Origin: Bacteroidaceae bacterium
Lineage (GTDB): Bacteria > Bacteroidota > Bacteroidia > Bacteroidales > Bacteroidaceae
Length of the DNA stretch: 32,460 nucleotides
Assembly: GCA_018054715.1 (NCBI GenBank)
Contig: JAGPIY010000003.1
Coordinates: 1 to 32,460 of the forward strand
Reading direction: 5' to 3'
The translations under genes and the position numbers were made by a program. Each line of letters starts with the position of its first letter. The first letter of the stretch is position 1. The notes below the pieces were generated by a model. It did no database searches and was not told where the DNA came from. It worked only from the letters and a program-made list of their open reading frames with translations. This document shows positions 27,803 through 31,362 of this stretch, one piece after another.

Positions 27803-28405
27803 ATGAAAAAGGTTTTATTGGGGATTCTTTTCCTCCTACTTTGTATCCCTGCAGTAGCAGATAATATTAAATTATATACTACGCTCAATAATTATATAAA
27901 TAATGTGTGTGAAGTTCCTTCCGGAGTAGAGTTACGTAGTCTTGATGAGCCACATCAATTACTTCAAAAAAAAGCAGCTTATTATTTTTGGACAACTGAT
28001 CGTAGTCTGGCTTATACCATTGCTCGTAAAACATTCATTGTAGAATGTGAAGGACAATTATATGCTAATGCTCAATTATTATCGTATGAACGAGAATCCT
28101 TATCAAAGGGTTTTGTTGCTTTTTATTTTAAAGATGGAAAATTCTTTTTTGAATGTGTAAATAAAAAAAATTTGAAAGCATTTGTATTTTCACCGATCAA
28201 TAAAAAAGTTTCAGAATTAAAAGCAGAGGATTTGAAAGCTCTTTTGCAAGATAATGAAGAACTGCTAACAAGTTATATGCAGTTAGAAAAAACAGCTACT
28301 CCCAAAGATCTATTATATTATATGCGTACTTATTTTATACAGAAAGCAAAAAATAATAAATCTACGGAAGAATGGAGTCCTAATGAAAAAGTGATAAAAC
28401 GATAA
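27803..28405 (+). CDS. Secreted protein of unknown function
   Basis: A 200-residue protein with a clear signal peptide (about 1-20, LLGILFLLLCIPAVAD). The mature part reads as alpha/beta with SLAYTIARKTFIVECEGQLY, FKDGKFFFECVNKKN and a helical, lysine-rich C-terminus. I do not recognise the family. It is 15 bp after nadA on the same strand, probably read with it, and converges with the PorZ-like gene. Confidence 0.7.
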   Translation: MKKVLLGILFLLLCIPAVADNIKLYTTLNNYINNVCEVPSGVELRSLDEPHQLLQKKAAYYFWTTDRSLAYTIARKTFIVECEGQLYANAQLLSYERESLSKGFVAFYFKDGKFFFECVNKKNLKAFVFSPINKKVSELKAEDLKALLQDNEELLTSYMQLEKTATPKDLLYYMRTYFIQKAKNNKSTEEWSPNEKVIKR

Positions 28406-28419
28406 TATTTGATCCTAAA

Positions 28420-31362
28420 TTAGCGGATAACGACTATTTTAGTAACAACTCCGCTTTTACCTTCACTATCTGCAGCAAAAACCATATATACTCCCGAAGT
28501 GACCCTTTTTCCTTGCATATTATACCCATTCCAAGTAAAAGTACCACCAATTGAAGTACCCTTATTTACTAGTTTCCCTGCTGCATCAACAATTTTTACA
28601 TCACTGTCATAAACTAAACCTGAAATAGTAATCGACCCAGAATAATCTGGTTTTACCGGATTTGGAAAAGCGTGTACGTCACTCGAAAATTCGGCTTCCG
28701 CTTCAGTGGCATCGCTTCGGTAAGAAATAATACCTTTTCCTGTACCGAAAAAAACTTCACCGGTTTGAGGAAGAATGGCAACACTTTTTACTTGATCGGA
28801 AGGTAATGGACTATTACTAGTGGTAAAATGGTGAATTTCTTCCGTGCCATCAGCGCTCATCAAATAAACACCGTTATTTTGTGTAGCAAACCATTTACGA
28901 TTTCCTCCATCGATTGCGATGTCATTAATACGTTGTCCGGAAAGAAGATAATCGGCAAGACCTGTTCCATCGTTACGAGGAATCTTTACTTGAGTAACAG
29001 TGAAGCTGTCATTAAACCATTTTGAAGGATTGCTTACTAATAATGGACCCATAGCTGTGCCAATCCAAATTTGTCCATCCATGTCTTCTGCAATAGCATA
29101 AGTGCGTAATGCTTCACTAGATCCGCTGATGGTAGTTCCGTCTTGATTTGTATACGAAGATCGAAATTTAGTATCATCATCTGAAGTATCCTCTAATGTA
29201 CCGTTTGTATCTACGCAAAACACACCATTGGTACTTCTACTACATACTACCCAAATGCGACCACTTGTATCAATAAGTGTTCGGGTAGGAGTTGGTGTTT
29301 TTGCAATATCCGAATAATAAAGACTTGTAAATGTACCATCTTTTTTAAGTATGTTGAGTGTATTGGTACTTACATTTGTCATCCATAAATTACCATTCGA
29401 ATCATAGTTTAGTCCATTTACACGTACAAAATGTTTTGGATCGCTAGATAAAGCTGTATTAAGTGTACTATTATTAATAGAATATAGTTTTACATATTTG
29501 CCATTACGAAATTCGTATAATCCTTCTCCGGCAGAAGAAGCAAATACATGTGTTGGATCGTTTGGATCAATAGCTACAGTAGTGATATCTCGATAAGATC
29601 CTAATCCGGTAGAGTCCGAGATGCCGTCTTCTTGAAAAGAAGTCCATTTTTCGTTTTCGAAAACCATGATTGTACCTTGGTTATTATATCGATCTGCAGA
29701 AATACCTCCTCCACAAACAAAAACACGATTATGATCTACTCGCATATAATCGGCTAAATTGCGTATTGGGCCTTCGGGAGTGGTGATTGTGTTGTCTACT
29801 GTTATTTGATTCGTACTTGCATTCAAAGTTGTTTGTAATAATTCGTTCTTTGCATTTACCGTCCAGTAATGATTATTTAAATAACTAATATTTTTAAACC
29901 AGACTGTAGGAGTAAATGTAACGCTAGTGTTATAAGTGGAGAAAGAAAAACTATCCCATCCATCTGAAACAATCAGATACTTATCGCAGTTGTGAGTTAA
30001 ATTAAAATTTCCACTTTTTACTAATGTAAGTGCATTATCATCTGTGTTGAACAAGAAAAGACCTTCATCTGCTTTTGAAAGAAATATATGAGAATCGAAA
30101 AGTGAAACACACTTGTATTGTGTCGTATTAATTTGCTGCCAATTATTTATATCTAACAAATTATCCGTGCTATTGCCTTTTAACAATCCACTCGTAGTAG
30201 CTGCAAGGAAGATTCCATTATATAAGATGCTACTATTTATTGGTTTATCTAAAATATAAGTGTTGTTTATTAGTTTATTTTTCACATCTACTTCTACAAT
30301 TCCAAAATTGGTATTCAGTAAAACTTTGTCACCTACTGTACTAAGGCTATTTACTGTTTTATCTTGCGAAAGTGTTTTATTCATGTAGTCGGGAATGTTG
30401 TAAGCAGTTCCGTCGGAAGTCAACAAATCTATATTATAATTTGAATAAAGAATAAAAAGAAGATTTTGATTTTTATTGTAAACAATAAATGAAATATCTT
30501 GATCATTAAGCTGTTTTGCTTTATTATACGTAGTGATCGATTCATCGTTTATATCGTACGAAAAGAGAGCACCTGAGGCCAATACATACAAACGATCGTT
30601 AGCTGGTTCTGAATAAGTAACTTCGCTATACGCCAAATGTGTACGCCATTCACCTATGGCTAATTGTGCCTTTAAAGGTAATTGATAGCCACAAAACAGG
30701 ATGAAAAGTGCAATAAATAATGAAAGCCGTGAAGCTAAAAAAGTACAAAGTTTTTCAATTGATCGTGCACGGTGACTAATTGTATTTTTTGTCTCTGCAG
30801 AAAGTTCTGCAAAAGTCTGTGTATATCCTTCAGGTACAAAGATAGGATCGTAACCAAAACCGTGATCACCTTGTTTGGTAGAAATTATTTTACCACGTAC
30901 AAGGCCTTCAAAGAAATGTTCTTCCTCTCCTTCTATTAAGGCAGTAACGGTACGGAATTGTGCAGATCGATCAATTTTATGATTTGAATCCAATTCTAAT
31001 TTCGCCAATTTTAGAAGTAATTTGTCCATATTTGCTCCCGAATCGTGGCTTGCTGAGGTGGTAAAACCTAATTTCTCATCTGAAATAGAAGCATATCTTG
31101 CGGAATAAATACCCGGTTCTCCATGTAGTGCATCCACTTCCAACCCACTGTCATCAGCAAAACAATCGTATCCAAAATGCTCTTTAACAAATCGGGCTTT
31201 TAGCAGTGCATTTCCGGCAAAAGTATTTGCTGTTTCAGGAATATCTTCTTCGCAACCTATGTCGCTTAGGCTCAATAATTCATATTTTTCCCCCAACATA
31301 GCTTTCACTTCTTCCAGTTTATGACGATTATTGGTAGCAAAAATCAATTTCTTTTTCGGCAT
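28420..31362 (-). CDS. rdgB-porZ: RdgB/HAM1 nucleotide pyrophosphatase joined in frame to a PorZ-like T9SS protein
   Basis: One 980-codon frame contains two normally separate proteins. Residues 1-211 are a complete RdgB (XTP/dITP pyrophosphatase, cleans the nucleotide pool): [15 protein letters not shown] at the start, [12 protein letters not shown] at 68-79, [20 protein letters not shown] at 168-187 and [10 protein letters not shown] at 197-206. Residues 212-232 look like a signal peptide ([21 protein letters not shown]). The rest is a PorZ-type protein with beta-propeller repeats of the two-component-regulator kind and a C-terminal sorting-type domain ([17 protein letters not shown] to the end). 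PorZ is a surface part of the T9SS attachment complex. A fusion would bury the signal peptide inside a cytoplasmic enzyme, so one frame is odd. A six-base A/T run at 30737-30742 lies at the joint; losing one base would end RdgB at once. Confidence 0.85.

Follow-up and report, generated by a model that had tools for sequence, protein, structure and literature searches.

A single uninterrupted open reading frame on the minus strand of the window (the whole stretch of DNA analysed, 32,460 nucleotides from a Bacteroidaceae bacterium) encodes RdgB followed by PorZ over 980 codons. A search of the whole genome, of a gut-type Bacteroidales, found this frame intact and in a single copy, and its product appears to be a genuine double protein, not the outcome of a sequencing error or of a frameshifting device. 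A true fusion was one of the options listed by the first-pass annotation, and it is supported by in-frame RdgB-PorZ fusions in 15 other assemblies, the joints of which were read individually and which belong to at least four further lineages. We regard it as probable that the neighbouring rdgB and porZ genes have undergone a genuine translational fusion giving one precursor, from which PorZ would be exported and RdgB retained. The positions of the relevant features are collected in Table 1.

The two parts of the fused protein

The N-terminal part matches the Ham1/RdgB profile PF01725 over residues 6–207 (E 5.2e-60) and scores 157.9 bits with TIGR00042, for which the cut-off is 145.35. It keeps N12, K15, E18, E43, N51, K55, D70, D71, F169–D172 and S196-H197-R198, all invariant in relatives, and its best solved relative is 4bnq. 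By profile and conserved residues it is thus a member of the RdgB/HAM1 family of non-canonical purine NTP pyrophosphatases, with predicted activity. The residues that are invariant in separate copies, including SHR and FGYD, are intact in 16 of 16 fusions, and in all 15 of the fused genomes searched, namely that of the window and 14 of the genus g11 (see below), the fusion is the sole rdgB. The whole domain and the invariant residues are shared with family members such as 4bnq and 2pyu, which differ in that RdgB/HAM1 proteins are normally free soluble enzymes ending a few residues past the last helix. Relative to the other fused RdgBs, that of the window has extra residues at about 92–105 and 119–126 (window 30984–31089), and the AlphaFold model is of low confidence at residues 81–106.

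The remainder of the protein matches the PorZ profile NF052228 (an NCBIfam equivalog) over residues 218–980 with an E value of 1.8e-234 and 780.6 bits against a cut-off of 260; its best solved relative is 5m11. The mature part satisfies this profile although the product does not begin with a signal peptide, the signal-like stretch being internal, behind RdgB. Porphyromonas gingivalis PorZ (5m11) is homologous over the mature protein and likewise has the C-terminal sorting domain, but it is not produced behind an enzyme. It is itself carried to the cell surface by the type IX secretion system (PMC5121618), and it is reported to deliver anionic LPS to PorU (PMC8545088). PorU and 19 sorting-domain matches are found in the window genome, which therefore has a type IX system for PorZ to serve. 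The PorU sortase match is split across two contigs (C109:2946-5342 and C93:55742-56728). Downstream of porZ and convergent with it, a DUF6563 protein is encoded at window 27803–28405, ending 14 nt from porZ.

Table 1 Features of the RdgB-PorZ reading frame in the window
Feature	Position	Strand	Basis or remark
Single fused ORF RdgB-PorZ, 980 aa	28420..31362	-	Stop codon at 28422-28420
RdgB/HAM1 (dITP/XTP pyrophosphatase) domain, residues 1-209	30736..31362	-	Profile and conserved residues
Last helix of RdgB, residues 197-209	30736..30774	-	AlphaFold model; joined with the hydrophobic core in a single helix, 197-223
TTG	30746..30748	-	Would share the PorZ frame only with a five-T run; overlooked in the first-pass annotation
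Run of six T at the joint, phase T TTT TTA	30737..30742	-	Ordinary for the window; not common to other fusions
Internal signal-peptide-like stretch, 23 residues, 210-232	30667..30735	-	R212 flank, hydrophobic core 215-224 (30720-30691)
Predicted signal peptidase I site A232/Q233	30664..30669	-	Invariant in 16/16 fused proteins; cleavage predicted
Mature PorZ, residues 233-980	28423..30666	-	Alignable with structure 5m11 (P. gingivalis PorZ) over residues 236-980
Type IX C-terminal sorting domain of PorZ (Por_Secre_tail)	28465..28668	-	23.6 bits, just above cut-off 23

Fused and separate genes among relatives

In most of the loci examined rdgB and porZ adjoin, with a median of 18 nt (quartiles 6–52 nt) from the rdgB stop to the porZ ATG. 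In the only other species of the genus compared (G001), as in most other relatives, the two genes are ordinary and there is an ATG, which in 117 of 124 separate porZ genes lies 42–100 nt upstream of mature PorZ. The separate pair of the Bacteroidales has the same genes in the same order and on the same strand, mostly with the same Ala-Gln end to the signal peptide; it differs in having a stop and an ATG between the genes and a PorZ with its own N-terminal signal peptide. In one order-level relative, rdgB is followed by a tandem pair of porZ-like genes (G038:C20:212655-214925 and 215023-217296).

The 15 further fusions comprise one in Tannerella sp. L047, a metagenome-assembled genome whose lineage is known from one contig, and 14 in assemblies of the genus g11, found by family-wide and genus-wide searches. 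The fused g11 genomes represent 12 species of one clade, within which one two-gene species is nested, and two further g11 lineages. All of the fused assemblies are drafts, and in one (L145, G475) a run of N follows shortly after the joint, so that the joint is continuous but the whole gene is not. In an order-wide sample of 393 genomes the window gave the only joined stop-free match, a count to be read with the proviso that a divergent fusion can escape such a search when its halves are listed separately. The early picture of g11 was biased towards fused genes, whose higher scores brought them up first; 60 more g11 loci were therefore added, and none of these 60 was fused. Two loci (G058 and G060) appeared fused from their open-frame figures, and reading of their joints showed separate genes.

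A tree of 140 concatenated RdgB and PorZ sequences requires five changes of state, and a 100-row tree without Tannerella again requires five. In the latter, the clade of 12 fused species also takes in a two-gene species (L213, G445) in which rdgB and porZ overlap by ATGA, and another two-gene species, L219, lies at its base. L145 forms a long branch. A more careful tree supports a g11 clade of 14 (100/99), the inner position of L213 being less certain. If L213 is counted as a re-split of the fusion, then according to these sequence trees the two genes were joined independently at least five times: in the window, in Tannerella L047, in G425, in G475 and in the g11 clade. The first-pass annotation had held that orthologues with two ordinary genes and a nearby ATG would speak against a fusion. 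Such genes are indeed what most relatives have, yet because the fusion recurs independently they do not refute it.

The joint and its run of six T

Across the junction the window reads TGT ACT TTT TTA GCT TCA CGG, with ACT at 30744–30742, the T run at 30742–30737 and TTA (Leu209) at 30738–30736. Reading through this sequence we found no stop, ATG, GTG or TTG in frame, and the closest in-frame ATG, GTG or TTG upstream of Q233 is a TTG 327 nt away, within RdgB. The open frame and the joint sequence thus bear out the original description of an in-frame fusion lacking both a stop and a standard start.

The idea that gave that description its title, a functional slippery run, fares less well. Transcriptional slippage or −1/+1 frameshifting at the six T would yield RdgB alone in addition to the fusion. 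T TTT TTA has the phasing of a known −1 slippery heptamer, a +1 event would give ACT TTT TAG, and the RNA downstream of the joint folds slightly better than shuffled sequences (z −1.76). The window is, however, AT-rich, and runs of this kind are ordinary in it: its reading frames of at least 100 codons contain 67 A or T runs with a length of six or more, and TTTTTTA occurs in phase six times. Nor is the run conserved among relatives of the same architecture. Of all the fused joints, only that of the window has six T directly after the last RdgB helix; the joint of L047 also has six consecutive T, although these lie deeper in the joint, within the signal peptide, and most of the others have shorter runs and more GC. 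In addition, the −1 product would be only a 28-codon tail and the +1 product would lose a conserved residue. With such runs common in the window and not common to the other fusions, we rejected slippage and frameshifting as the explanation and consider them extremely unlikely.

The lost residue bears equally on the claim that dropping one T would end RdgB at its natural length. Instead, this change deletes Leu209, a residue shared by all 16 fused relatives and by 118 of the 124 separate ones. Every one of the 124 separate RdgBs extends at least one residue beyond the Leu209 position, and the five-T version would be shorter than all of them. This counts against an assembly or sequencing indel, in which the true run would be five T, rdgB would end ACT TTT TAG and porZ would start at an overlapping TTG (Table 1) with a 28-residue N-terminal stretch. 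One T fewer does give both a stop and an in-frame TTG, so the five-T sequence would be a workable overlapping gene pair, and the only congener compared has two ordinary genes. The usual porZ start is, however, an ATG at the distance given above, and the independent appearance of the fusion elsewhere means that no error is needed to explain the data. Assembly error, which had been listed as an option, is thus unlikely as a general explanation, and for the window alone we judge the indel very unlikely.

The internal signal-like stretch and a proposed export of PorZ

In the fused proteins the last RdgB helix leads into a hydrophobic core directly or through a short linker. Ahead of this core a K or R is present in all 16 fused joints, as it is in all 124 separate signal peptides, and the mean core hydropathy is 2.86 for the fused joint peptides vs 2.91 for the separate signal peptides. 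The Ala-Gln pair (A232-Q233 in the window) is invariant across the fused set. A positive flank, a hydrophobic core and a small residue at the expected cut are therefore all found within one reading frame. In the AlphaFold model, for which the 16 fused sequences were the input, residues 197–223 form one helix and confidence falls at residues 218–236, around the expected cut, which is no more than suggestive.

The genuine fusion that we favour would have arisen by loss, in frame, of the rdgB stop and the porZ ATG, giving one precursor. The RdgB part would fold in the cytoplasm, its last helix running into the PorZ signal sequence, now internal, with R212 as the positive flank. Sec would take this internal signal with its N-terminal side in, and signal peptidase I would cut after Ala232. 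PorZ from Gln233 onwards would pass to the periplasm, where its sorting domain would direct it to the type IX system; RdgB would keep a hydrophobic tail of about 23 residues, probably on the inner face of the membrane. The precursor is thus probably cut apart during export. The open frame, its recurrence and the conserved features of the joint are observed; the N-in insertion, the cleavage and the final location of RdgB are what we infer. The first-pass annotation found it difficult to square a cytoplasmic enzyme in front of a secretion signal with export, an objection that loses force because an internal signal inserted N-in and cut by signal peptidase would free PorZ.

A comparable arrangement is the Bradyrhizobium FbcH precursor of cytochromes b and c1, in which one gene contains an internal signal sequence and signal peptidase frees the exported part. 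It works similarly, but its N-terminal part is a membrane protein and it has no homology to RdgB-PorZ. Counting against the proposed route is one eukaryotic case, Trypanosoma cruzi GP82, for which signal peptide recognition is reported to have required an N-terminal position (PMC6513831). In the open-access literature searched we found no report of an RdgB-PorZ fusion, nor any paper dealing closely with a cleavable signal that lies internally, after a folded bacterial enzyme. Here a signal sequence has come, naturally and repeatedly, to stand behind a soluble housekeeping enzyme while both parts stay conserved, so that the distance from the N-terminus at which a bacterial cleavable signal can work becomes directly testable. 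N-terminal signal-peptide prediction would overlook PorZ in the fused genomes, and a long reading frame of this kind in a draft genome need not be an assembly error.

PorZ might instead be started separately. With two starts, RdgB would be read through into PorZ and the functional PorZ would be initiated close to the joint, from a codon that is either internal or non-standard: ATG, TTG or GTG in some fused species, and in the window ATT, ATC or CTG. Many of the fused g11 members do carry a standard start codon in this region, in several cases an ATG immediately ahead of the core and in some a TTG or GTG within the last RdgB helix, and in these a second PorZ start is possible. Such a codon is not conserved, however. 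Reading of the joints of the window, L103 and L122 found no ATG, GTG or TTG from which a short signal peptide with a complete core could arise, and in these three and in L129, L130 and L145 there is no ATG that retains the hydrophobic core. A start at the core would also leave the signal peptide without the K or R present in all of the separate ones, and this applies to the rare-codon start suggested for PorZ in the first-pass annotation. Moreover, no stop ends RdgB in any of the fused species, so RdgB must still be made within the fusion. We consider two starts unlikely.

The genuine fusion has a stronger form, in which RdgB-PorZ would be a functional polyprotein that has evolved repeatedly. 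Its internal signal peptide would pass PorZ to the type IX system and RdgB would stay anchored at the inner membrane, so that the amount or location of an enzyme that cleans the nucleotide pool would be coupled to a secretion component. This we advance tentatively, as doubtful but plausible. The fusion is not strictly kept in the fused set, as the nested two-gene L213 demonstrates; this species suggests that a fusion can be undone, and that it is perhaps neutral rather than selected.
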